In this document: positions 1,811 to 50,520 of the stretch, piece by piece
Layout of the letters: every line of letters begins with the position of its first letter
Position numbering within the stretch: the first letter of the stretch is position 1
The notes under the pieces: model-generated
The model's database searches: none
Told to the model about the DNA's origin: nothing
The model's input: only the letters and a program-made list of their open reading frames with translations
Translations under genes and position numbers: made by a program
Origin: Beroe forskalii
Taxonomy: Eukaryota; Ctenophora; Nuda; Beroida; Beroidae
Direction of reading: 5' to 3'
NCBI GenBank assembly: GCA_011033025.1
Contig: WFMF01000073.1
Location: forward strand, 402,579 to 466,578
DNA: 64,000 nt

Positions 1811-2689
1811 AATTTATTAAGTATAAATGGGTTTAAATGGCCTTTTAGCTCTTAAAGTCCTTGATCTGGTGACCACTAGAAAACTTTTTGTCCAATGGGC
1901 CGGCTAAAACCGTTCAAAAATGATTCGATTTTTGTCCATAGGCCCGGTTAATAAAAAGGGGGCCGGTTAAATAAAGGTCAATAAGGTATACCATTTTTGA
2001 CGATGATTTAAGGCTTTAAAACTTGAAAATGAAAGTTAGTGCCCAAAGGCCAAAGTTTGGGCAAAAATTGTGCACGATTTTTCTGCCTCCAAGTCATAGG
2101 CAGTTTTAAATGGAACCATCCCCGAACCGTAACTAGGTCACTATATAAGAATCTTAGAATGTATAGAAATATTATATGCTACCTGTAACGAACAATTTGC
2201 TTAAAATCTTGAGTAATTAGCCATTGCATCTACAGTAATGAAGTGATAAGCTGACGAAAATTGTCACCTGATATTTGATCGAAGCTGCTGAAATTATAAT
2301 CTTTATTCTTTCTTACCAGGCAAAAGTTTCAACTTCTTCCCCTAATGGAGAAACGTTAATGAAATTACATGGTTCTCTTATTACAAGTATTATGCACGTG
2401 GAAACACGGTGCTTTCTCACTGCAAAAGTGTACTTTTGGGGGAATAAAGAAATAAGAACCTGCGACCATCTCGATACAGCAGGGTGTACGTCTCCCATGA
2501 TAGGAACCCAGAGGGAAAGAGAGCAGAAGAAGGCACTGGAGATGCCTCAAAATGAAGAAGAAGATCAGTAGCGAGCCCGGGAAGTACCACTACATCCAAA
2601 ATAGAACAGAGACAGAGTGACCGTATAAACTTCTCAGAAGGTTCCGTCAGCTCATACTGCTGCCGTTTCAAGGACAGCGACACCACTTC
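1811..2689. other. spacer without a supported gene
   Basis: Contains GGCCGGYTAA-type short repeats at 1897-1970 and an open frame on the plus strand (2275-2571, 98 codons). The frame has no recognisable motif, and the opposite strand is also open across 2313-2550 in several frames, so none is called. A consensus-like acceptor (tttcttaccag) ends at 2320 but no matching exon was recognised. Confidence 0.4.
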
Positions 2690-3405
2690 CCCCGTCAACT
2701 CAGGCTGCCTCACCATCTCAGACTCCCCCGTCAACTCAGGCTGTCTCACCATCTCAGACTCCCCCGTCAACTCAGGCTGTCTCACCATCTCAGACTCCCC
2801 CGTCAACTCAGGCTGTCTCACCATCAGACTCCCCCGTCAACTCAGGCTGTCTCACCATCTCAGACTCCCCCGTCAACTCAGGCTGTCTCACCATCTCAGA
2901 CTCCCCCGTCAACTCAGGCTGTCTCACCATCTCAGACTCCCCCGTCAACTCAGACTGTCTCACCATCTTAGACTCCCCCGTCAACTCAGGCTGTCTCACC
3001 ATCTCAGACTCCCCCGTCAACTCAGGCTGTCTCACCATCTCAGACTCCCCCGTCAACTCAGGCTGTCTCACCATCTCAGACTCCCCCGTCAACTCAGGCT
3101 GTCTCACCATCTCAGACTCCCCCGTCAACTCAGGCTACCTCACCATCTCAGACTCCCCCGTCAACTCAGGCTGTCTCACCATCTCAGACTCCCCCGTCAA
3201 CTCAGGCTGCCTCACCATCTCAGACTCCCCCGTCAACTCAGGCTACCTCACCATCTCAGACTCCCCCGTCAACTCAGGCTGCCTCACCATTTCAGACTCC
3301 CCCGTCAACTCAGACTGCCTCACCATCTCAGACTCACCCGTCAACTCAGGCTGTCTCACCATCTCAGAATCCCCCGTCAACTCAGGCTGCCTCACCATCT
3401 CAGAC
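2690..3405. repeat. 36-bp minisatellite, about 20 copies, open on the minus strand
   Basis: The unit is CTCCCCCGTCAACTCAGGCT plus GTCTCACCATCTCAGA. Since 36 is a multiple of 3, the minus strand encodes a 12-residue repeat, ESEMVRQPELTG, over most of the array. A 2-bp loss in one unit near 2822 splits the frame. At the low-coordinate end the frame runs on for about 90 residues of non-repeat sequence to a stop at 2417. That tail has no motif I recognise. The array may be a coding repeat or simply a stop-free satellite. Confidence 0.9.
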
Positions 3406-5941
3406 GGTCCTGTATCGTCCAGTATATGTGTTGTTGAATTAAACTTTTAATCGTATTGATTTCAGTGGATAAGATCAGAGAATCCTTATTGTCAAATTCA
3501 TTTTCATCACAAATAACAGCAAATCCAATAATACTATATTCAATATGACTAGGTATAATATCACCATACTGTAGTTGTGAATTCAATATTATTTGATATT
3601 CCAATATCATCATTATTTCAGCAACATTTCAGTAGATTGAAAATGGATTCATATCAATATGAATCCACTTGAAAATCTCAACGTCATTTCCAAATTAAAT
3701 GTCGATAATGAAATTACAAATAACATATAGACCATATAGGTAAATGTTGAACGTTTGAAATACTTTTATACCTAATGTTCAATAATTTGATTGAAATCGT
3801 TCCACTACTGTATATCTTAACATTCTTTGCAATCCAATGATTTTCCAGCAATCAACAATAATTTTGCATTCGCCTACTGAAATGTTGCAAGGAGAAATAT
3901 TGAAGATGGCCTTACTTCAGTGGCAAATTCAAATCGCTCTTAACAGTTATTGAGGGAGTATGTTTTCATATTGAAGAGGTTTATGATCTTAGGCAGTCTC
4001 AGGATATTATTCAAAATAATTTTGATAGTCATCTCACTTGAATTCCAGAAAACAGGGGTTTCGACTTGCAGTTCTCAGCCATGACAACATGCTGTTATTC
4101 TCAAAATTCGTTCTAAAGCTGTTCTATGCCCTTAACCCTGCATAGTTACGTTGTCTAAGAATAAACGCATAATCGTTCATGGTTGCCATTTGTAACCCTG
4201 AGATATGGACGGATCGGACTACAGCACTTCTGTACTGTAGTTCGTATATCAATGCAGATTTAATGCAGTGCACATATAAAATGTAAATATATTCATTAGT
4301 TCATTATTCGTATGTTATGCACTTGTCAAATCACCACCTTCTCAGCTACAGGTAGACCTGTCAGTAACCAATTCCCAGAGGAACATACATTTACCATTCA
4401 CAGAGAACTGGTCAAATGACAGCACTGTCAAGGTTTGTTAAAATACTGAACAGTGACAACTACTCAACAAACACAGTGTTTTAGTAGAATTATGCGCGTG
4501 GTTGGATATTATGATATTATGTTGGTTATGCTGAAGAAGATGAGGAAGATAGCAGTTGTTCTAGCGGAGGGCTGCAGTTTACTTCATGGAAAGATAGCTA
4601 TTTTAATGAATAATTAAATCCGATGTATTTATTTGAAATATATTCTATTTCTATCTCTCAACTAAATCTGTTGCTGAATTATTGACGGCAAACGATGAGT
4701 ATATGTCCGTTTAAATTCATTCCATAAATAACTCCAAAGCCAATAGTTTGCACTTGTAAGTCACACCATGAAATGTGATAATGATATGACTATCATCGTG
4801 TCACTATATTCATTATCAGAGTGAGAGAGTACACGGCGATATTCTTATTAATTCATTAAAGTTTCGTCACACTGAAACTGGAAAGACTAATAGAGTAATA
4901 GTTGAGTTTTTGAGGAGGTGATCTCATCACATACGGTGAACCAGTGACTCGGCAAGGAAAGTGACACAGTTAATTGATCTGAGACGTAGTTTCTCCTTTC
5001 TGTGGAAAGCTTTAACCGCGCAAAACATTATCTTATTTTACCTAGGTACCTTGCAAACAAAGAAACCTTGACTGATAGGTTTAATTCCGAAATACTGTCT
5101 ACCTTTGAAGAGAATAGAGTAATGGTTCAGTAGGCTGTTGGGGCCATGTAACAGCTTGCAAAGAATAAGAATTTTTGAAGGAACAAACGATGATTTTGTT
5201 ATGTCAACAAACTAAATCTTTACATAGAGGTTACGGGTAAGTTAATAATAGGTATCATGGGGCTATTGATCAAGACATTTCGTTAATTTGGGAGATATTT
5301 TCATTTGGGAGATATTTTCATTTTGAGTGCCAGGCGCAAAATTGTTGACATGAAATAATTTGGTTAATGTACCGAAGTGTTATATATTTTCTATTGACGG
5401 AGCCCTTTGTGGTGCCATCAAGAGGGTTTCCAATCAATCAATCATTTTTTCCAGACATTTATTTGACTTTGTAAAACTTACTTTGCTCAATACTCATTGA
5501 ATACTTCTAAAGTTCTAATACTTAAGCATTACTGATTATAGTTACAAATTACTGATTATAGTTACAAATTCAATTCTATAGAAGTATAGAGCCGTATGGA
5601 CCATAGCAATGTCAAACGCGATGAACAACCTCGTGCCATTTACATATTAGGCGCTTTCTTACTCTTCTATTGAGATACGGATGATTGCTGATCATGATTA
5701 GCACTTCCGTACAGACGTATGTAGCTAATAATAAAAACAACATGTAGCTCAACCAATAAAACTTCTGAGTTAATATGTTTATGAATAATTTTCGGAAAGT
5801 AGGGAAATTATTCATTGAGTAGATGACGAATTGCGTGCAGGTATTGATGTGAACGTTTAGTGTGATCCAATGACCTACTGTTCTGCTATTTTTGTAATAA
5901 AGTTCAAAAGCCCTCACTGGTGCCCCCTGGGGTTTTCAAAC
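3406..5941. other. 2.5 kb without a recognised gene
   Basis: AT-rich sequence with frequent stops in all frames. A 21-bp direct duplication (ATTACTGATTATAGTTACAA) sits at about 5529-5572. No coding segment, RNA gene or transposon end was recognised. Confidence 0.5.
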
Positions 5942-6059
5942 AAACATGAATAACAAATTAGAAGACTTCAGTTAATAGCACTACCATGACTACATTTATG
6001 CTTTTATGTAGTCATGGGAGTGCTATCAACTGAATTCTTCTAACTTGTAAGTCATGTTT
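5942..6059. repeat. 118-bp imperfect inverted repeat (MITE-like hairpin)
   Basis: The left arm starts AAACATGAATAACAAATTAG and the right arm is its near reverse complement, ending CTAACTTGTAAGTCATGTTT. The inner arms (TAGCACTACCATGACTACA) pair almost perfectly, leaving a loop of about 12 bases. Size and structure fit a very small MITE or its remnant. No clear target duplication was found. Confidence 0.6.
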
Positions 6060-6060
6060 T

Positions 6061-6096
6061 TTGACAAGTAACCAGTTATAACTGGTTACTTGTCAA
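6061..6096. repeat. 36-bp perfect palindrome
   Basis: The arm TTGACAAGTAACCAGTTA is followed directly by its exact reverse complement with no spacer. It lies one base to the right of the hairpin at 5942-6059. Confidence 0.9.
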
Positions 6097-8231
6097 TGCA
6101 AGTCTTTTCAGGGACTTAAGACTTTAAGAGCTTCAAGATGAGTTATCTACTTGCCTTCAGGATAATAAATTCAAAATTGCACCACTATATCATATTAATG
6201 ATAAATTTACGTATTCTAGTCGATACATGCATTCAACTTTGGCTACTTGAATGATATTCGATGAATCCTTTTAACTATAATTCCTGAGAATGATCTTCAT
6301 GAATTTTATATCTTTATATTTTTATTAAAATTGAGAAATTAATAATATTCTCAGAAAATCTCTCGGTGGCTGCTCCAAGGCAGACTTTTATCATGATAAA
6401 ATACTTATAATAAATTCTAATATAATATTCAAAGGCTTTTAGCTCATAGCACCAATTAAACAATTTCAAAAGGAGGATATGAATGGTTCTTTTGTTGAAT
6501 TAATTGCTTTCTAAGTTTCTACAACACTATTTGCAGTAGTTAAGTGTTTATTGAGAACTTCATCAAGCTCCTCTGAACACAGCAAATGGTTGGAGATATA
6601 TTATAAATAATCTTCTGCGAATCAAGATTTTTGTTATGGGATCCAATACCAGCCGTGCATTAGAACATTAATAAAGGTGCATGTACCATTGTAAATATAA
6701 ATACCATGATATTTACTTTTTAATAAAAAAAGTACCTATTGTTACATCTCCACAATGTTATAAGTAAAATATTAAATTATTGCCCTATATCATTCTAAGA
6801 TTCTAATCGATTGATGAATCTCGAGAGTTGGTATTGCTAAATGATTGCCCGGTACTAGGAAATATGAAGCACACAGACTAAGACAGAGCGGAGGAGAGAA
6901 ATTATTTCGCTTATTACCAACTTGAAAGAGGGTGCTTTGAGACTTTTAATAACAAATATGTTTATTACATCTCAAACTTTCTTACATTCATTTCAAATTT
7001 TCAATGAGCATACTATTTTCAGATTGTAAGCACGTAAGATTTGATAAGGAATAGATGTATTGCAACTGTTTGGGTGCACCTCAGAGCTATTTAACTGTTT
7101 TAAGGAGCACCTGGAACTTAACTGGTAGTCAGGTTGTTGGGCTTAGTTGAAGCAGTGTTACAAAATTATACAGAAAAATAGGTCGTACGAGTTTACGAAT
7201 TTTGAGTCGATAAATTTTGTGCAGTCTAATAAAATTAGAATGACAGAATATTGATTTACAGTATGATCTTTCGAAATACAAAATCTAAATCTGACTCATT
7301 ATTTTATTTTCTAACTACTGATGAGACCATTGACCAACTGGTATATGCTAAATAAATGATATCGAAATCATACCCACATACGGTAGAAAGATAAGTCATT
7401 TATAAATGATTTAAGATATTTCGAATAATGAAACTGAAACTACTGTTATGTAGGATCTTTCCAACAATTTCATTGTGCAACATGGTTCGTAAAAGCTGTA
7501 AAGCTGTAATCACTATTGCTGATTCGGTTATTTACTTATTTGAATAAAAAACGGTCTATGAAAAATGTATGGCATAGCACTTAATTAAGATAAATTGAAA
7601 ATTGTTGGGCATATAAGCATTATGTAACTATTACAACTGCCTCTTATTGAGTATACTTAGTTACCTAGAGAATTGTACTTTCTAGTGTGCTATCAAATCA
7701 AGTTATGTTTCAGTGATGACCATACCCAAAATTGTGTAGACTGGGTGTCACTGAGAGATACTGGTATTGTATCAATTATTCCTCTATAATTGGGAGACAA
7801 AGAGACCTGAAGAATGCTGACTATCTCAGTATAGAAATTAGTTAATTAGTGATGATATTGATGTGTCCAAGTTTGCGATGATGCGTCCAACACACGAAGC
7901 AGTTCTTGATAAGAACACAAAGTAAGCGACAGGTAAATGAGTTTAAATTCCACTTTGGTATAATAATCACAACATTCAAACTTCCTGACAAATCCTATAA
8001 AATGCTATCACAAGAGTAACCTACCACACTAGCAAAATGAACAGATACACCAATAAATTACACTCAAACGAGCATTTTGCTCATGATCCTAATAATGACG
8101 AATGAAATAGATGAATAAATAAAGTCTATGAATTTTAAGTATAATCTTGCAGGACCCAGCCCGCATATTCCGGTTTAAAATCTAAGAACATATCCAGCAA
8201 GGACAAGAGATGTCACATTAATAACAAACAT
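6097..8231. other. 2.1 kb without a recognised gene
   Basis: AT-rich non-coding sequence. No motif-bearing frame, RNA gene or transposon terminus was recognised. Confidence 0.5.
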
Positions 8232-12744: not shown

Positions 12745-15597
12745 CCCTTTGGCCACATGCCCTGAAAACCGCGCGGGATTCCCGAGCGGAATTCCGTATT
12801 TAAAATCCCGGAAAATGGGGTTAGTTGCTACATGCCCAGAATTACGAATTTCAGTGCGCGTGGATTCACGGATACTTGTATGGTATAATAGTTTAATGGT
12901 TTATTAATGAGACCATGTATCTACACAGTGTCCGTTGATGGATCAATACGACAGTACCTAGGTGTTGTGAAACTTATCCATCATTATGTAAACAGTAATT
13001 GTAGTGTTTGTATAACAATTCTGACCAAAAAATTACAGGGCCCGTAGTTCGTATTTTTTGAGTTGGGTGGCTGGGCGAGCGAAGCATTAAGCAAGCCCAA
13101 GAACAGGGGCAAAAGCCCCTGGCGGGGCTTAGGCCCCCGGAAAATCATTAATTTTTATCTAATGCCTCAAAGCGATCATCGGACTATACTTCAGCTGCAT
13201 TTATAATTGGCGCCGTGCTCGGCCAACCCATTGCCTAGTGCCTATCATGATCTCCCTTTGAGTAAGATGACAAATAAAACCAATCAGACGGTTGATCTAA
13301 CGTCACATTTAACCGTCTGATTGGTTTAATGGGTATTGAGTCATAATAGTCGAGTTTTCGAGTCAATTTATGTAACCTGACTCGAAGACTTAACTCGAGT
13401 TTTTGGACTAAAACACTTGACTTGCCAACCAGACGTGATAATCATGATCAGTGATAGTAGTCTTAGTCAGTTTAATCAACCAGGCCAGTGGCAGCCACAT
13501 GGCAGATCATAGATACTTCCCTATACACAAGGCTAAGCTATTAGGCCAAGAGTATGAACTCCTGGGTGGACAGGCCACCCGACTTCCGGGCATATCCAGG
13601 GCTGAGAGCAGTCCGCCAATCCACGACCCTACAGGACCGGCGAGCGACCAACGCCTACACCCGGTGATCACTCACCTTAATTTGACCAGGCCACTCGACT
13701 CGAATCGGCCATTGAACGAGAATAAGCCTACCGAATCGACTCTGCCGATCGATTGATCGGATCAATCCGGACAATGTGAGCGATACGTCAGATGTGTGTC
13801 AGTTGTACGTCAGACTGGTGTCAGTGATAAGTCAGAATGGAATTGGCAATATGTCAGGCTGGTGTCAGTGACACGACAGACTGGTATCAGTGACACGACA
13901 GACTGGTGTCAATGAAACTTCAAACTGGTGTCAGTGACTCAGTGATACTACAGACTAGAGTTAGTGATAAGTCAGACTGGTGTCATTGATACGTCAGACT
14001 GGTGTCACTGGATCACTGACACCAATCTGACATATCGCTGACATACGTGACACCAGTCTAACGTATCACTGACACCAGTCTAACGTACCACTGACGTCTG
14101 ACACCAGTCTGGCGTATCACTGACAAAAGTCTGAGGTATCACTGACACCAGTCTGTCGTGTCACCAGCCTGACGTATCATAGACACCATTCTGTATTATC
14201 ACTGACACCAGTGTGACGTATCACTGACACGAGTGTCCAGTCTGACGTATCACCAGTCTGAATTATCACTTACACCAGTCTGTAGTAGCACTGCTGAAAC
14301 TCTGACGTATCACTGACACCAGTCTGACGTACCACTGACGTCTGACACCAGTCTGGCGTATCACTGACAAAAGTCTGACGTATCACTGATAGTTGATACC
14401 AGCCTGATGTATCACTGACAGTGACACCAGTCTGACGTTTCATTGACACAATTTTCAATTTGATGTATCGCTGACACCAACCTGACGTACCAATGACAAT
14501 GGTACGTCAGGTTGGTGTCATTAATACCTGACGTACGACTGACAGTGGTACGTCAGGTTGGTGTCATTGGTACGTCAGGTTGGTGTCAGCGATACATCAA
14601 ACTAGTGTCAGTGATACGTCAGACTGGTGTCTATGATACGTCAGACTGGTGTCTATGATACGTCAGGCTGGTGTCAGTGATACGTCAGACTGGACACTGG
14701 TGTCAGTGATACGTCAGACCTGTGTCAGTCATACGCCAAACTGCTGTCAGTCATACGCAAGAATTTCATTGGTGATACGTCACACTGGTATCAGTGATAC
14801 GTCAGACCAGTGTCAGTGATACGTTAGACTGGCGTCACAACGCGTACTTGCGCACAAAGTACTGACACTGTCAGCTATACGTTAGACTGGTGTCAGTGGT
14901 AGGTCAAACTAGTGTCAGTGATACGTTAGACTGGTGTCAGCGATACGTTAGACTGGTGTCAGTGATACGTTAAACTGGTGTCAGTGATACGTCAGACTGG
15001 TGTCACTGTCACGTATGTCAGCGATACGTCAGATTGGTGTCAGTGATACGTCATGACCTGCCTATCGGCCCATAACTTGCCTATGGGCCCATAACGGCAT
15101 AACCTGCCTATGGGCTTTTATAAATTATGTATTAGGGGTCTATAATAGGTAGTTAATAAGTTAATAGCTAAATAGTAATGCTAACAGTAGCATCAGCACG
15201 TATGCGTCGAAATTGATCCTTGCATTCTCAAAATTTCTCACTTAAAATTCCTTCATTCAAAGTCACAGATTCTCAGTGTCCAAACGTGAACCATTGTCTC
15301 ATTGTATTGTGAGCAAGAGAAGCTAGTATGAAAGTGTATTCCAGTGTTTGTGTAGGCAACTAATTATAATGTAATGTGATAATGGGCTGTTCGTGTAATG
15401 GTATAATCAGCGGAAACCATTGAACTTCCTAGTAAATTCTGCGGAATTCCGTTCAGAATCTCGAATCTCGTGTTCCAAAACACGAGATTCGGAATTTGAC
15501 CGGTTTTTTGCTCGGGGAATCCCGAAAATCGCAGTTTGGCACCAAAATGAGGGATTCCCGAACTTCAAAATGCGGGAATCCCGGGCATGTGGCCTTA
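12745..15597. mobile_element. foldback-type element, family copy 1
   Basis: Starts CCCTTTGGCCACATGCCC and ends GGGCATGTGGCCTTA; the shared terminus is GGCCACATGCCC. TTA stands just before it and TTA ends the copy. The interior has no transposase. It holds a large array of a 22-bp unit (GTCAGTGATACGTCAGACTGGT), forward at about 13780-14005, inverted at 14010-14480 and forward again at 14490-15050, so the core can fold on itself. Subterminal GGAATTCCG and ATCTCGTGTT hairpins add to the structure. The open frames inside are repeat products. TTA duplications and GG-rich TIRs resemble PIF/Harbinger-type elements; the long tandem arms resemble foldback elements. The superfamily is inference. Confidence 0.75.
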
Positions 15598-17655: not shown

Positions 17656-20600
17656 TAATATAATAGTCGAACGTGTTTCGCATATTTGTAACACGTAGGT
17701 TATATGTAGCTGTGGTTTGGGGATGTCTGTGAATAATATTCATCTTGGGGCTATCAATTACATGAGGATCCAAAGAAGACGCATGATAAATCGGCATGTA
17801 AATTAGCAAAGATGGATTTTATATAATGCTGATGTAGAGAAGATATAACATTGATGCGGTGTTGGATTTATCAAATAGAGCTCATGTAATAGATGGGTTT
17901 TTCATTTAGCATGTCTATAAAGTGTATGTGAGAGACGCTAGATATCAAGGGATGTAATTCGCAGAGGAGCTATGTTAAATATACGTGAGACTATTATAGT
18001 AATATAATAGTCTTCTCAACATGTTCCCTATTTCTTCTCAAAATAAGGCTGCGTCTTCCAAATCATTGATAAAACATCCTAACACATTCTTGTGACTCCC
18101 AAACTTTAAAAAAATCTTAATAAATGTATTTTGTGACTCTCTTACACACTCGTGCATCTTCCTAACATACGTAGTACGCACGTGCCTTTTCACACCCAAG
18201 TGATGCTTAAACGCTTTCTGTATCTTCCAAGCACACTAGTGTGGCTTTCTACTTTTCTATAACAATCCTGTGTCTTCCGATACACTGTTTCGACTTCCCA
18301 CGACACCCATACTTCTTCCCAATCCATTTTTTGTCTTTCCAAAAGGTACTTATTACACTGTGTGGTCTTCCTAAGCACCAAGACATTCATTCCTGTGATT
18401 TCTAAAATCAATTCTGTGTCTTCCAACTCACTTGGTGAACTCAGTGTCGATCCTTGCTGTACGGCATGTTAAACAAGGAATCGAAGCTGAGGGACTCCGT
18501 ACAGGACATTACTGTTACGGCATTTGTGATTATACAGAAAAGATTTAGATTGTATTACTTGCCAGCACACCTAATTCAATACTACTGTATTGTCCATCAC
18601 ATTCTTATGCTCCCTAACTAACTTTTGTGACTTTCTGCATCCTCTGAAACGCTCTTATAACTTCCAAACACAATTATAAGATGTATTCGTGCGACCTAAC
18701 TACAAATTCTGATACTTCTTAATATGTTCTTGCATGGTATTTTCTTAAGGTGCTGCATCCTCTTACTTCCTTCCATGCCCTCCTAGCACACATAATTGTG
18801 AAGTGCCACGTCTTAGCACACTTCTGCGTCTTCTGGTACACTTCTTATTATACCATCAGAGCCTTAATCTTCCCAGTACTCAATATCTTTCCAACATACT
18901 CGTGCGTATATCTCGCACATTCTTGCTTACCAACTCACTCTGAATGTGTCTTTCCAACACACGCCTGTGTGAATTTGTATTTTTGCCCAAAATTCCCATC
19001 ATAAAATTGGGCGTTGCCAATTATTATTTATTGGCCTCAGCAATGGTTATAGCCAAAAAAATAACAGTTGCATCGTTTTTCTCGTGCAAAAATAAGTGGG
19101 TTTAGTGTATAATCTTGCCTGTATAGCTCAAAATTTTTGAATTTGGATTTTTGCCCAAAATTCCCACGATAAAATTGGGCGTGGCCAATTATTGGCCTCA
19201 GCAATGCTTATAGCCAAAAAATAACAGTTGTATCGTTTTTCTCGTGCAAAAATAAGTGGGTTTAGTGTATAAACTTGCGTGTATAGCTCAAAATTTTGAA
19301 ATTTAGATTTTTGTCCAAAATTCCCACGATAAAAATGGGCGTGGCCAATTAGTGGCCTTTGCAATGGTTATAGCCAAAAAATAACAGTTGCATCGTTTTT
19401 CTAGTGCAAAAATAAGTGGATTTAGTGTATAATCTTGCCTATAAAGCTCAAAATCTTGAAGTTCAGATTTTTCACCAAAAATTCCCACGGTCAAAAAAGG
19501 GCGTGGCCATAACTCGAAAAGTGCCGACCGGATTTTAGGGGATTTTGGTTTGGTGACTCCTGGGACCATATTGAATCGAAAAAACACCCTAAGTCATTGC
19601 TGCAAGTTAGTTCCCTAACTCTTCAAAATTTGTCTGTTTTCGACCGGACTATAGTGTTTGTATAACAATAACAGGGCCAGTCGTTCAATTTTCTAATTTT
19701 TTGAGTTGGGTGGCTGGGCGAGCGGAGCATTGAGCAAGTTTACGAATGAGGCAAAGCCCCTGGTGAGGGATTTGGATTCCAGAAACTTATTAGAAAATTA
19801 ATTAGAAAATCAATTATTCTTATCCAATGCTCGAAGCTATTATCGGACTATACTTCAGCTGCATTTATGATTGGCGCCGTGTTCGGTCAATCCAATGACT
19901 ACCACGTGATCTCCTATTGAGTAAGATGACAAATGAACCAATCAGGCGGATGAATATCTCGTGAATATTGATAAGAACGTCACATATAACAGTCTGATTG
20001 GTTTAATGGGTATTGTGCCAATAGTCGAGTTTTCGAGTCAATTCATGTTACATGACTCAAAGACTTGGCTTGAATTTTGGACTTAACCACTTGACTCGCC
20101 ACCCAAAACGTGATAATCATGGTCATTGATAGTGGTCTTAGTGGAGTGGCCATTTGTGATTTGGTCAAGGTCGGTTCTTAAACTCCAATCAACCAGGCCA
20201 GTTGCAGCCATTCAGATCATAGATACTTCCCTTTACACAAGGCTACCCTATTGGGCAAAGAGTGTGGTATTCTGGTTGGACTGGCCGCCCGATTGCCGGG
20301 GATATCCGGGCTAAGAGCAGTCCGCCGATCCAGGGCCCTACTGGAGCGACGAGCGTCAGTGCTTAACACCAGGTGATCACTTACTTTTAAATTAATTTGA
20401 ACTGGCCACTCGACTCGAGTCGACCATTCAACGAGAATTAGCCTACCTAATCAACTCTTCCGATCAAATCAATCCGGAATGTGTCAGCGATACGTCAGAT
20501 GTGTCAGTACTTTAGAATGGTGTCAGTGGTACGTGAAAATGGAACTAGCGATACGTCAGGCTGGTGTTAGTGAAACGTCAGGCTGGTGTAAGTGAAACGT

Positions 20601-21149
20601 CAGATAGGTGTAACTGGTAAGTCAGACTGGCGTCAATGAAATTTCAGACAGGTGTCAGTGATACTAGTTGTCAGTGATTAGTCAGACTGTTATCTGTGAT
20701 ACGGCTTTACGCCAGATCGGTGTCAGTGAATCACTGTCACCAATCTTACGTAATGGTACATGATACATCATTTTCAAACTGGTGTCAGTTATAAATGATA
20801 ATACAGACTGGTGTTAGTGGTACGTTAGACTGGTGACAGTAATAAGTCAGAATGGTGTCAGTGATACTGCAGACTGGTGTCAGTGATAAGTCAGACTGGT
20901 GTCAGTGATACATCAGACTGGTGTCAGTAGTAGGTCAGACTAATGTGATTGATATGTTAGACTGGTGTCACGTATGTCAGTGATACGTCAGACATGTGTC
21001 AGTGACACGTTAGACTGGTGTTAGCGAGAGGTCGCACTGCTGCTAAGTACGCTAGCGATACGTAAGATTGGTGTCACGGGTCACCGTGTCAGTGCGATAC
21101 GTCATGACCTATTGACCTGCCTATAGTTTTTGTAAATTATGTGGGGGTT

Positions 21150-25740: not shown

Positions 25741-26568
25741 AGGGGGGGGTTCACCCCTCACATTTTGGAAAACACGAATTTGAGATAGGAGTTGGCCAGG
25801 ATGGCCAGGGCGTGTACATACATTTTGACGGTAGTCTTGAGTCCATAGGTCCAACATTGCCCATGTGAGGCCTCGGAGCAAAAATGGCGTCCAAAAATCG
25901 AAATTTTACCTGATGCAGATAGCTTTTGATTGCATTCGATTTGTCTCGACGAGATGATCATTTTAGTGTATTTGTTTGTCAAAATTGGATGAAAAATGGC
26001 GAAGTTAAGCTCATGCAAAGCGCGCACGCCAAAATTGCGCCTATTCTGGGCCTAAAGATGGCCATTTTGGCCACATTTTTGGAGATATGAGCTTCAAACT
26101 TGTTTTACCCATCATTTATGTCAAAATTGATGGGCAAACCAATTATAAGTTAATTGGACCTTATTTGGCCAATTTAGCACACAAAAAACCTTCAAAAATC
26201 CACTAAATCGCTGATATCTCAGATAGCGCTTTTGCCCAAATTGACTTTCTACTTTTCGTTATAACTTTTCCATTTTTCATTGTTTCTCCATGAAATTTTC
26301 AGAATCGCTTCGAAACTAAATTTCGCACTTAAGTTACTAAGCAAAATTTTGGGTTTTCACTCCAAAAATTTTTTATGCCCATGAGAGCCAAAATCCCCGG
26401 GGATTTTGGCTCTCATGGGCATAAAATTTTTTTGGAGGCCAACATGGGCAATGTTGGACCTATGGACTCAAGACTGCCGTCAAAATGTTGGTACACACCC
26501 TGGCCATCCTGGCCAACTCCTATCTCAAATTCGTGTTTTCCAAAATGTGAGGGGTGAACCCCCCCCCT
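25741..26568. mobile_element. 828-bp MITE (AGGGGGGGGTTCACCCC family), copy 1
   Basis: Ends AGGGGGGGGTTCACCCCTCA and TGAGGGGTGAACCCCCCCCC plus TT, flanked by TA. The outer ~110 bp pair (GTTGGCCAGGATGGCCAGGG / its complement). Inside, near 26373-26437, lies a long perfect palindrome around CCCCGGGG (arm ATGCCCATGAGAGCCAAAAT). The long arm 25741-26395 recurs at 62341-63003. The element ends 31 bp from the donor of carboxypeptidase exon 6. Confidence 0.78.
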
Positions 26569-26598: not shown

Positions 26599-26790
26599 CT
26601 GGTGGGTACTTGCAACAGCCCAGTTCGATGGTCAGCTCGAAACAGTCCTGGTAGTAATAGTTCCAGTCCTGCATGCCATTGAACACCTGATACCACTGGT
26701 TTCCGTTGGTGATCCCATCCTCAAAGTAACTCCTGCCACAAGGACTTTTGCTTTTAGTCATCGTCTTGTGGTTCAAGGAGTACGTTTTAG
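26599..26790 (-). CDS. carboxypeptidase exon 6 (catalytic glutamate)
   Basis: 192 nt after the acceptor CATCCTTCAG, ending CCACCAG|GTGAAT. Reads [20 protein letters not shown], then [35 protein letters not shown] and CCKYPP. It carries the Tyr and Glu of the active site. The first codon is completed by the last G of exon 5 (CTA G-CT AAA = L A K). The donor is 31 bp from the end of the MITE at 25741-26568. Confidence 0.92.
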
Positions 26791-29700
26791 CTGAAGGATG
26801 ATTTATTAACTTATTATTAATACAATTGAATGATAAAAGCTAAATTGTACAAAAAATCCACGGGCAATGGGCATATTGTAAAAATGTTAAAACCTTATAC
26901 TGGACCTCTAATAATCTGTAACACCAGTCTAAAAGCTGTGTTCCAGCAACCTAGGTGCACAAAGGTTTTAAAAGCTGTGTTTATTAACCAACCTAGGTGC
27001 ACAAAGGTTTTTAAAAGCTGTGTTCCACCAACCTAGGTGCACAAAGGTTTTTAAAAGCTGTGTTTCACCAATCACCAACCTAGGTGCACAAAGGTTTTTA
27101 AAAGCTGTGTTTCACCAACCTATGTGCACAAAGGTTTTTAAAAGCTGTGTTTCGCCAACCTAGGTGCACAAAGGTTATTAAAAGCTGTGTTTCACCAACC
27201 TAGGTGCACAAAGGTTTTTAAAAGCTGTGTTTCGCCAACCTAGGTGCACAAAGGTTTTTAAAAGCTGTGTTTCACCAACCTAGGTGCACAAAGGTTTTTA
27301 AAAGCTGTGTTTCGCCAACCTAGGTGCACAAAGGTTTTTAAAAGCTGTGATTCACCAACCTAGGTGCACAAAGATTTTTAAAAGCTGTGATTCACCAACC
27401 TAGGTGCACAAAGGTTTTTAAAAGCTGTGTTTCACCAACCTAGGTGCACAAAGAGTTGGTCGTCTGGAGAGGCAGCATATTCCATAGAGGGGACCCCAGG
27501 ATAGCCGTCCCAGGGATAGTTAACCACCAAGGAACCGTCATGGAAACTGATACCTAGAACTGCTGGAACTCTAGCAGCCTGAAATGTGAGAGTTTCAATA
27601 GAGTATCATAGACGTATACAATAATATAGTTATTGACTGTTGTTAGTCTTGAAAAGTAAATATATTTAACAATAAAGCACAGAGGGATCAATCGAGATTC
27701 GAGGATATGAAATTTTGCAATTTGCACATTTATTTTCGATAGAATCTCTATCGAATCAATGAGACATTCTTACACTAAAATTGTGTGCCTCCATCAATCC
27801 CTTATGTGTTCGGTCCATCCACACACAGATGTGTGATGGTGGTGTCAATAATCGGAGAACTGAGATTGGTGTACCTATGTACCAGCATAACTTATAGCTT
27901 ATCAGTCAGGTATCAAGGTGTGTCAATATGCCATCATCTGTCTGTGCAGATAACGTTCTCAAGAACTTAATTACTCACATATTCTTCTACCATTTTTGCC
28001 TCACTGCCCATTTCTACCCCTAATTCCAAAAAGGGGTTAGGAAAGTCCCTGTTCAAGTCTTTTCTTTCACTGGTGTACCTGATACAAAACAAACGTGAAC
28101 ATAAATTAGGTATAAAACAAATGTTCACACTTAAGGCGTGATTATTGATGATTCTGAAGGAAAACATAGGTAATGTGTATGTATATACTTATATAATAAA
28201 AAGCCATCAATAATTCTTCAAACACAAACTAAGTAACTAAATAGGTAGCTCTTCAATTTGATGATTTATCCACTATTTAGTTTTCAAATGAGTATCTGCT
28301 ATAGTGCTATAATTTATACCTAAGAAGATTTCCTTCTAATTAGATTCAACCTTAGCTAGTTATAATTCAACAATTAGCTAATAATTATTTCATTAAGTGT
28401 CACAACTTAAGTTTGTGTTACCTGCCCACAGTACCCTCACAGGACTCGGTTGCTGAGGCAAATCCATCTGGGTTAAGTGTTGGTACCAGATGCAAAACAG
28501 TTTCATCAAGAACTTTCTTTACATCTGCGTCTTTTGACTTAAACACAAGATAGTAAGCAAGTTTTAGAAGAAGACCACGCCCTCTGACCTCATTCCCATG
28601 CATATTAGCCACATACTGCGGATTTGATTAATATGGTAAATATACCTATGATAGGATTTCCAAAACCATGGGACAGTGGTCGTAGTAAGTTAACCCCCTG
28701 CTGATTGGGTATGGTCAGTCCTTTTTTCAGTTGGAACCAACGTAAATAAACCTCACGCAGTCCAAAACAATGTTATTCTAACTTGGAATCAACAAAATTG
28801 ACGTGTTTCTTAATTTTGATGTAAACTCATGTGCTGAAATACAGCAACTGGCTTCAATTTCACGTGCATTTATCCTATTTGAATTTGTTTCAAATTTCAA
28901 TGTAATAAAGTTGAAACTAACGTGTAAATATCAATTTCTTTAATTCCAACAATTTCTACAAAACGTCCAAATTTATCATTAAACTACAGTAACACTGAAT
29001 CCTTTACTAACCTTTAACCTTGACCAGTTACTTCACTGTAGCCTGCCATTTAAGTATATGCATATTCATAAGAACGGTTGTACAATTATACCTGAAATTT
29101 TACATGAATCTTTCTAGCTACTTCCCAACTCTTTATTTCGTTTTCTGATAGGCAGGGGGTTACCGCCCTGGCCAGGGCAGGAAAAGCTATCATTATCATT
29201 ACATTGAATATTTATATAACATATGCTCTATTATCCAATCATTGCTATTCAATGTATAGAATGAAAAAATGATACTTTACCTTGACATGAGGCTTATCAG
29301 ACCTCTGTGAGCTTGACACGTTGCTTGTGATTGTTATTTCATTTATCCTTCGTTCATTGGAGCTAATACCAAGTGAATTAATTTCTACCAAATCTGGATA
29401 CTGAATAGGAACGTTAATTGACATAAATAGGATTTTTTTCGAATTTTATAACCCTTCATTACCTCAATAGGTTAAACAAAATTTAGGTTAACTCAGTCTA
29501 ATTCATTTGAGGTTGCCACATGGTGGCAAAGTGTTAGGTATTTCATATAAATGCATTTAATATAATTGAATTATACAAATGTTTATTGTTTATCTGTATT
29601 GCATATTTTGGTCAATTGAGTGTAAAAGCTCCTTTTGACTTGAATTTTCAAACTTTTAAACATAATTTATTATTCAATTATTACCACCGAATTTGAGTAC

Positions 29701-46860: not shown

Positions 46861-49800
46861 CCCTTTGGCCACATGCCCTGAAAACCGCGCGGGATTCCCG
46901 AGCGGAATTCCGTATTTAAAATCCCGGAAAATGGGGTTAGTTGCTACATGCCCAGAATTACGAATTTCAGTGCGCGTGGATTCACGGATACTTTTATGGT
47001 ATAATAGTTTAATGGTTTATTAATGAGACCATGTATCTACACAGTGTCCGTTGATGGATCAATACGACAGTACATAGGTGTTGTGAAACTTATCCATCAT
47101 TATGTAAACAGTAATTGTAGTGTTTTTATAACAATTCTGACCAAAAAATTACAGGGCCCGTAGTTCGTATTTTTGAGTTGGGTGGCTGGGCGAGCGAAGC
47201 ATTAAGCAAGCCCAAGAACAGGGGCAAAGCCCCTGGCGGGGGGCTTAGGCCCCCGGAAAATCATTAATTTTTATCTAATGCCTCAAAGCGATCATCGGAC
47301 TATACTTCAGCTGCATTTATAATTGGCGCCGTGCTCGGCCAACCCATTGCCTAGTGCCTATCACGTGATCTCCTTTGAGTAAGATGACAAATAAACCAAT
47401 CAGACGGTTGATCTAACGTCACATTTAACCGTCTGATTGGTTTAATGGGTATTGAGTCATAATAGTCGAGTTTTCGAGTCAATTTATGTAACCTGACTCG
47501 AAGACTTAACTCGAGTTTTTGGACTAAAACACTTGACTTGCCAACCAGACGTGATAATCATGATCAGTGATAGTAGTCTTAGTCAGTTTAATCAACCAGG
47601 CCAGTGGCAGCCACATGGCAGATCATAGATACTTCCCTATACACAAGGCTAAGCTATTAGGCCAAGAGTATGAACTCCTGGGTGGACAGGCCACCCGACT
47701 TCCGGGCATATCAATGGCTGAGAGCAGTCCGCCAATCCAGGACCCTACAGGACCGGCGAGCGACCAACGCCTACACCCGGTGATCACTCACCTTAATTTG
47801 ACCAGGCCACTCGACTCAAATCGGCCATTGAACGAGAATAAGCCTACCGAATCGACTCTGCCGATCGATTGATCGGATCAATCCGGACAATGTGAGCGAT
47901 ACGTCAGATGTGTGTCAGTTGTACGTCAGACTGGTGTCAGTGATAAGTCAGAATGGAATTGGCAATATGTCAGGCTGGTGTCAGTGATACGTCAGAATGG
48001 AATTGGCAATATGTCAGGCTGGTGTCAGTGATACGTCAGACTGGTGTCAATGAAACTTCAAACTGGTGTCAGTGACTCAGTGATACTACAGACTAGTGCC
48101 AGTGATAAGTCAGACTGGTGTCATTGATACGTCAGACTGGTGTCACTGGATCACTGACACCAATCTGACATATCGCTGACATACGTGACACCAGTCTAAC
48201 GTATCACTGACACCAGTCTAACGTACCACTGTCGTCTGACACCAGTCTGGCGTATCACTGACAAAAGTCTGAGGTATCACTGACACCAGTCTGTCGTGTC
48301 ACCAGCCTGACGTATCATAGACACCAGTCTGACGTATCATAGACACCAGTCTGACGTATTACTGACACCATTCTGTATTATCACTGACACCAGTGTGACG
48401 TATCACTGACACAGTGTCCAGTCTGACGTATCACCAGTCTGAATTATCACTTACACCAGTCTGTAGTAGCACTGCTGAAAGTCTGACGTATTACTGACAC
48501 CAGTCTGACGTACCACTGACGTCTGACACCAGTCTGGCGTATCACTGACAAAAGTCTGAGGTATCACTGATAGTTGATACCAGCCTGATGTATCACTGAC
48601 AGTGACACTAGTCTGACGTTTCATTGACACAATTTTCAATTTGATGTATCGCTGACACCAACCTGACGTACCAATGACAATGGTACGTCAGGTTGGTGTC
48701 ATTGATACCTGACGTACGACTGACAGTGGTACGTCAGGTTGGTGTCATTGGTACGTCAGGTTGGTGTCAGCGATACATCTAACTAGTGTCAGTGATACGT
48801 CAGAGGGTCTATTTTCAGAACTTTCTATATTACGTCAGGCTCAGGTCGTGATAGAGGGCGATGGGGCAAAATGGGATAGTATACCAAATGGGACCCTTAC
48901 GATTCCTGGGAATATACATGGGTTGGGACTAAAATTTTGTTGCTGTTGAATGGGTCCGAGATAGGTCACTTAAACCAAGAAGTCATTGAGGTAATTCAAT
49001 CAGGCTCTTCTTCACACGACTACTTCCTTACACCAGATAATGAGTAACGATGTTGCTTGTTTACTCTATCATGACATGATTTGTATTGGAACATTCCTTT
49101 TATGTTTGATTGTATTTGGTTCATCATTAGCCTTATTCTCCAGTGATTGATGGGTTTTTAGTTTGGTTAATGATAGTCTAATATGTCAATTAATATAAAT
49201 TAAACTGCCATATAATTTGTAAAATAGGATACTCATGACTGACACCATAGGATATCCCATTTGGCCATTTCGGACTATATCCATTTGACCAACTATGGTT
49301 TTCTAATTTTCTATTTAATTGACGGAAATGGTTTGAATTTTATCATTTTATCATAAAAATGTGTTCTATTTCATTTGCACTTTCAGGCATCCAAAATTTT
49401 GTTTTAAATACAAAGATGTTAAAATGGGACACTGGAAGTTGGTCAAATGGGATATCCCATTGGGCTATTTATGTGGGTCCCATTTGACAAACTTTCACAG
49501 AAAAATCAAATGAGGTTGGCCAGACGGGATGAGGCCACACCCACAAAATGGGCAGGGAATGGTGAAGTTTGATGTTATTACACTAATCTTCAGGCAATAG
49601 CAGTATCTATGCAAAAATTTCATGGAAATCGGCTAAAATGAAAACTCTACAGACTTAAGAATTTTAGGGTCCCATTTGCCCCATCGCTCCCCTACGTCAG
49701 ACTGGACACTAGTGTCAGTGATACGTCAGACCTGTGTCAGTCATACGCCAAACTGCTGTCAGTCATACGCAAGAATTTCATTAGTGATACGTCACACTGG

Positions 49801-50520
49801 TATCAGTGATTCGTCCAGACCAGTGTCAGTGATACGTTAGACTAGGGTCACAACGCGTACTTGCACAAAGTACTGACAATGTCAACTATACGTTAGACTG
49901 GTGTCAGTGATACGTTAAACTGGTGTCAGTGATACGTCAGACTGATTGTCACTGTCACGTATGTCAGCGATACGTCAGATTGGTGTCAGTGATACGTCAT
50001 GACCTGCCTATCGGCCCTAACGGCATAACCTGCCTATGAGCTTTTATAAATTATGTGCCCAGGGGGTCTATTAGGTAGTTAATGGCTAAATAGTATTGCT
50101 AATCCTTTACGTACCTATGCGTCGAAATTGATCCTTGCATTCTCAAATTTGTCTCTAAAAAATTCCTTCATTCAAAGTCACAGATTCTCAGTGTCAAGCA
50201 TGAACCATTGTCTCATTGTATTGTGAGCAAGAGAAGCTAGCATGATAATGTATTCCAGTGTTTGTGTAGGCAACTAATTATAATGTAATGTGATAATGGG
50301 TTGTTCAGTGTAATGGTATAATCAGCGGAAATCATTGAACTTCTAAGTAAATTCTGAATTCCGTTTCAGAATCTCGAATCTCATGTTCCAAAACACGAGA
50401 TTCGGAATTCAGGAATTTGACCGGTTTTTGCTCGGAATCCCAGAAAAAACGCAGTTTGGCACCAAAATGAGGGATTCCCGAACTTCAAAATGCGGGAATC
50501 CCGGGCATGTGGCCTTAGTG
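46861..50520. mobile_element. foldback-type element, family copy 3
   Basis: Same family as 12745-15597: starts CCCTTTGGCCACATGCCC, ends GGGCATGTGGCCTTAGTG. TAA flanks both sides (46858-46860 and 50521-50523), and removal restores CAGTAACGTAACCGGCC of the 205-bp repeat. Over its left 1.9 kb it is nearly identical to copy 1 (including the block GGGTGGCTGGGCGAGCGAAG and the 22-bp arrays), which points to recent spread or duplication. It is interrupted by a MITE at 48854-49692. Confidence 0.85.
48854..49692. mobile_element. 839-bp MITE with GGGCGATGGGGC ends
   Basis: Ends GAGGGCGATGGGGCAAAATG and CATTTGCCCCATCGCTCCCC, flanked by TA. Absent from the same place in copy 1. The interior repeats ATGGGATATCCCATTTG-like palindromic phrases; no transposase is seen. 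Mariner-like by target site. Confidence 0.8.

Follow-up and report, generated by a model that had tools for sequence, protein, structure and literature searches.

Thirteen copies of one 5′ splice site stand in a row at the end of a carboxypeptidase exon, each preceded by the same exon bases. This raises the question of whether the row is a device that serves splicing or a repeat that happens to have arisen across an exon-intron junction.

The carboxypeptidase gene and its repeat array

The minus strand of the window (the whole stretch of 64,000 nucleotides that was analyzed) carries a gene for an M14B metallocarboxypeptidase (CPD/CPM-like); six of its exons, separated by GT-AG introns, give a continuous open frame. 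In PDB alignments, the product matched 1h8l (carboxypeptidase gp180, E value of 1.9e-56), 3mn8 (LP15968p), and 1uwy (carboxypeptidase M), which we take to be duck, fly, and human proteins, respectively. The features around the fifth intron are as follows (a slash marks the exon-intron boundary).

27440..27578, minus strand: exon 5, ending ...DDQLFVHL plus the first base of an Ala codon (PDB alignment, joined frame)
27434..27443, minus strand: putative authentic donor CTAG/GTTGGT, the 5′-most of 13 (conserved frame FVHL-AKTYS; 9.62 bits)
26930..27453, minus strand: 40-bp minisatellite, 13 copies of CTTTGTGCACCTAG/GTTGGTGAAACACAGCTTTTAAAAAC over the exon 5/intron 5 junction (TRF, unit alignment)
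26945..27403, minus strand: 12 further donor copies (donor PWM; FVHLGW-stop for each), with GT starts at 27399, 27359, 27319, 27279, 27239, 27199, 27159, 27119, 27079, 27032, 26992, and 26950
26791..27439, minus strand: intron 5, 649 nt, about four-fifths of it array, with the acceptor ...CATCCTTCAG
26599..26790, minus strand: exon 6, beginning CTAAAACGTACTCC... (PDB alignment, joined frame)

TRF reported positions 26930 to 27453 as a single array with a period of 40, 12.9 copies, 91% match, and a score of 867. On the minus strand, the copies aligned at TTTGTGCA numbered 13, and the spacing between neighbors was 40 nt in 10 of 12 cases, 47 nt in one, and 42 nt in another. The unit joins the 3′ end of exon 5 (14 bases) to the donor side of the intron, an anatomy that the original prediction had described correctly except that it counted 13 exon bases. 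The donor CTAG/GTTGGTG recurs in 13 consecutive copies within the array, AG standing immediately before GT in all of them. The copies carry distinct substitutions and indels, and the exon-distal one is among the most altered. This copy number excludes a chance origin of the array. An exact 20-mer of the unit had no match elsewhere in the 216-Mb assembly of 1,134 contigs, and an 80-base query from the array, with the best candidates scored, gave no second match either. There was therefore no sign of a mobile repeat, and a mobile element or dispersed repeat was dropped as a candidate.

Which of the 13 donors belongs to the gene can be read from the protein. Exons 5 and 6 are both bounded by AG...GT with matching phases, and conservation of the residues F..LA.tYs at the end of exon 5 extends to all three PDB entries aligned here (1h8l, 3mn8, and 1uwy). 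Exon 5 takes its final 14 bases from the first repeat copy. Exon 6 starts CT AAA ACG TAC, so that TTT GTG CAC CTA G/CT AAA rebuilds FVHL-A-K, and FVHL-AKTYS is obtained with the first (exon-nearest) donor copy only. Two placements made beforehand hold up well here, namely that exon 5 ends in the first copy of the array, where homology fixes the site, and that the acceptor of exon 6 is at 26791, where its AG ends. Judging from protein conservation, the first donor would be the only one used. That conserved codons lie inside the repeat shows that the unit derives from the exon end, from which the array spread into the intron.

In the alignment of the 13 copies, one of the 17 columns from donor position −13 to +4 varied, against all seven from +5 to +11, a contrast that is inflated by indels in two copies and by shared descent. 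The near-invariant donor core could hint at constraint, and we did not take it as evidence of selection. No such contrast was seen in another donor array of this genome (L059, listed below), in which 3 of the 12 listed junctions read CTGGTTCT instead of CAGGTACT. The carboxypeptidase array also folded better than 20 shuffles (z of −5.4), and we make no claim about RNA structure because a tandem self-complementary unit would give the same result anyway.

Frame and strength of the later donors

Splicing at a later copy had been expected to add in-frame or out-of-frame repeat units to the mRNA. An in-frame addition is not possible, as any of the 12 later donors leads to FVHLGW and a stop, with TGA two residues on. 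Because this stop falls within the first added unit, the outcome is independent of copy number.

Donor and acceptor PWMs were derived from 46 introns, resolved among 51 pairs of CCT and myosin exons in this genome, a set in which a few of the assigned acceptors look doubtful. The first donor (CTAG/GTTGGTGA) scored above 91% of the 46 leave-one-out values and is predicted to be strong by PWM. The proposal that the later donors look usable agrees with these scores, 12 of the 13 array donors reaching the 41st percentile or higher among the 46 sampled donors and the distal one the 20th. A GTTGGT donor occurs in 2 of the 46 sampled introns too, and donor scores as high as that of the first copy had a frequency of about 0.36 per kb per strand in roughly 130 kb of fetched sequence.

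Junction-spanning arrays in other genes of the genome

TRF arrays were compared with 172 exon matches to CCT, myosin, and dynein genes (203 were listed, the other 31 lying in unfetched stretches) and were often near exon ends. Arrays were judged by eye, and those with at least 2.9 copies and a unit containing 5 or more coding bases were taken as clear cases. Seven further junction-spanning arrays of this kind, with unrelated sequences, were found in dynein, myosin, and CCT genes.

L055: donor, 49 bp by 12.1 copies, 44 exon bases per unit, dynein exon end plus donor (C580:379200-384600, minus strand)
L059: donor, 55 bp by 11.9 copies
L051: donor, 32 bp by 3.1 copies
L029: donor, 37 bp by 2.9 copies
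L037: acceptor, 69 bp by 32.0 copies, about 40 myosin-exon bases (YLLGVEES) per unit (minus strand of C29:1500-11400, positions 3971-6104); two acceptors are possible, with coding bases within the unit for either
L043: acceptor, 34 bp by 8.1 copies, before the myosin exon FNSFEQLCINLTNEK, one of the 46 PWM introns
L060: acceptor, 71 bp by 8.0 copies, about 57 bases of a conserved dynein exon (C194:349400-352800, positions 5-573)

In L055 and L059, one unit included in the message would introduce a stop; in L043, it would shift the frame and also lead to a stop. A claim that repeat periods are never multiples of three was dropped, a weak case having a period of 45. At the unit joint of L055, GAG is common to the exon and the donor, which suggests microhomology at the founding duplication.

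Six arrays (L026, L028, L039, L056 [23 bp], L058, and L064) were excluded from the clear count because the junction was not clearly in the array or because just 2 to 3 exon bases were included, and L048 (47 bp by 4.0 copies) because its junction is uncertain. L047 and L048 are on contig C790, where, in each of the two gene copies, a dynein acceptor 20-mer recurs exactly twice within its own intron, the distances being irregular. L028 and L029 correspond to CCT gene copies on contig C558, inverted and ca. 40 kb apart, that are 86% identical over 5,709 aligned columns. The two differ in repeat number, with 1 versus 3 copies at the donor and ca. 4 versus 1 at the acceptor, whether they are duplicates or a product of assembly, and this difference makes length instability of junction arrays plausible.

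To place these cases against a background, 85 introns were resolved (46 of 51 plus 39 of 47 pairs, with 13 pairs dropped and some of the pairs paralogous), and a 20-mer was considered repeated when it had at least two further copies within an equal range of 600 bases each way. Among 85 donors, the junction 20-mer was repeated in two (L055 and L059), and among 85 acceptors also in two (L043 and, irregularly spaced, L047), compared to 619 of 4,548 intron-interior (13.6%) and 6 of 680 exon (0.9%) control 20-mers. With unequal search ranges, the same test gave 2, 3, 611, and 6 for donor, acceptor, intron interior, and exon, respectively. L029, L037, and L060 are outside the 85 introns, and L051 has one further copy only. 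Junctions are repeated less than intron interiors and, to the extent that four cases allow a comparison, more than exons. Such an intermediate rate would be expected if minisatellites arose anywhere and those that span junctions were tolerated, while their rarity relative to intron interiors counts against a special function. We make no claim of a genome-wide excess of donor-like minisatellites, three times AGGTRAGT with gaps of 8 to 38 bases giving 1,405 occurrences versus 4,430 in the reversed control.

Origin of the array and comparison with known repeats

Tandem repeats of similar placement are known from amphioxus as “mirages,” reportedly described for the first time by Canestro in 2002. 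These boundary-spanning repeats are found in Adh3, with units of 10 to 72 bp, and in the globin genes BflGb6 and BflGb9, with units of 150 to 160 bp (PMC3087553), as well as in PGBD5, with troponin C also named (PMC3902484). Regular splicing was undisturbed there as judged by RT-PCR, and the repeats were unstable in length (PMC3087553, PMC3902484). Mirage units contain exon and intron bases over the boundary, lie on the donor or the acceptor side, and in many cases show AG/GT. The carboxypeptidase array resembles them in the 14 exon bases of its 40-bp unit, in the AG/GT of all 13 copies, and in a unit length that falls within the reported range. It differs in copy number (13, compared with 3 and 6 units reported for BflGb6) and in lineage, several unrelated conserved genes of one ctenophore genome being concerned. 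Regular splicing, shown by RNA in amphioxus, is predicted here for the first donor, the only one that keeps the conserved frame. By its anatomy, the array belongs to the mirage kind. Human genes in segmental duplications likewise carry internal tandem repeats at exon-intron boundaries, and these have been tied to novel introns or to exon lengthening (PMC2812944). These share the position at the boundary, but in our case the repeat does not include the acceptor, and exon 5 keeps its length. Among the best matches in the ctenophore and Mnemiopsis literature, taken by title or abstract start, no paper dealt with junction-spanning repeats. In the literature matches listed, as far as their titles and excerpts go, “mirage” arrays were limited to a handful of amphioxus genes, with boundary repeats also in human segmental duplications.

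We consider it probable that the array is a minisatellite of the mirage type, a tolerated by-product of repeat birth and not a splicing device. A tandem duplication would have copied a segment over the exon 5/intron 5 junction, comprising 14 exon and ca. 26 intron or filler bases, and the array may then have expanded and been homogenized through unequal exchange or slippage. The working donor would still be the copy that adjoins the exon, the later copies would be transcribed as intron and then removed, and the array could persist because it lengthens the intron and not the exon. Any mis-spliced message would presumably decay, and the array itself probably lacks a selected function.

The original prediction proposed that the repeat could act as a decoy or a buffer of donor strength. 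In such a scheme, the additional donors would attract U1 snRNP and adjust exon-5 splicing, or divert part of the transcripts into nonsense-mediated decay, with copy number setting protein output. Such a role would fit the 12 of 13 donors that score like real ones, the almost invariant exon-like core, and the shared stop, which would make a clean decay switch from every alternative donor. However, dynein, myosin, and CCT genes contain junction arrays of unrelated sequence as well, and repeats are less frequent at junctions than in intron interiors, with no enrichment pointing to selection, so that the claim is left unsupported; the first donor, moreover, is already strong by PWM. We regard this role as quite unlikely. 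Recursive splicing, in which every AG/GT of the array would act as an acceptor plus a regenerated donor and the intron would be removed stepwise, is extremely unlikely. Recursive splice sites (ratchet points) have AG directly followed by GT and are located in long introns. The array copies share this AG/GT (13 of 13), but they form a short tandem array with no acceptor-like tract before the AG, and an intron of 40 nt, as each step would require, is very short. On the acceptor PWM (46 introns), the array AGs all scored 2 bits or less, whereas the median of real acceptors was 9.3, a test that is not absolute since the exon-6 acceptor itself scored just 2.0; recursive splicing was rejected on these scores.

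The array might also be an intermediate of intron gain, with intron 5 born when an exon segment containing AGGT was duplicated in tandem (Rogers type), an origin that has been proposed for the globin mirages of amphioxus. A paralogue on contig C315 lacks the intron, the homology of both of its carboxypeptidase domains being continuous at this point (query 136-188 and 2-166), and CTAG/GT is similar to a proto-splice site. Yet the acceptor side (CATCCTTCAG/CTAAAACG) has no repeat copy, and 139 intron bases separate the acceptor from the array. In a Rogers-type gain both intron ends lie in duplicated copies, while here the array ends at 26930 and the acceptor is at 26791. We consider this origin very unlikely. 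Minisatellites are prone to misassembly, and a junction with one or two copies could have been falsely expanded, but the copies differ by distinct substitutions and indels, and the same architecture appears with other periods at other loci, which makes an assembly artifact highly unlikely. A broader alternative to the tolerated minisatellite is that junction-spanning minisatellites exist genome-wide (perhaps at thousands of loci), with a fixed rule by which the copy nearest to the exon wins on donor and acceptor sides alike, and that some arrays with near-invariant cores, the carboxypeptidase array among them, are kept since U1 snRNP recruited by their donor rows shields the transcript or raises its output. 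Taken as a whole, this combination is unlikely.

What is new here is where and how often such arrays occur, in a ctenophore and with seven more clear cases among 172 exon matches. Their presence in an early-branching animal suggests a process that is neither lancelet specific nor rare. Rows of 13 near-identical donors or some 30 acceptors in conserved genes provide a natural test of how the spliceosome chooses among equal sites, and they also allow one to ask whether such arrays seed new introns.

Other repeats were seen in the window. Between exon 6 and the next carboxypeptidase part there is an inverted repeat (25742 to 26566) with 125-bp arms, 97% complementary, and a 575-bp spacer, which looks like a MITE-type insertion. 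A 36-bp array of 20 copies with 96% identity at 2688 to 3405 is open in more than one frame. Arrays with a 22-bp unit (TGTCAGTGATACGTCAGACTGG-like) occur in both orientations at 13775 to 15053, 20546 to 21021, 47891 to 48769, and 49708 to 49944 and are perhaps borne by a dispersed element.

Elsewhere in the assembly, the mitochondrial contig C1134 (13.3 kb) holds the sole COX1 match, and its first 10 kb have a G+C content of 17.4%. In these 10 kb, ARAGORN (bacterial code) found no tRNA, and there was no Rfam match at the gathering score. Ctenophore mitochondrial genomes are described as being 10 to 11 kb long, with all tRNA genes lost (PMC7194472), compared to which C1134 is somewhat longer. 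Together with the codon use of its COX1, these features make a ctenophore host probable. Its COX1 contains four in-frame TGA codons and no CGN codon in the stretch counted, and the arginines aligned to those of 7o37 COX1 are AGA or AGG, which points to code 4.
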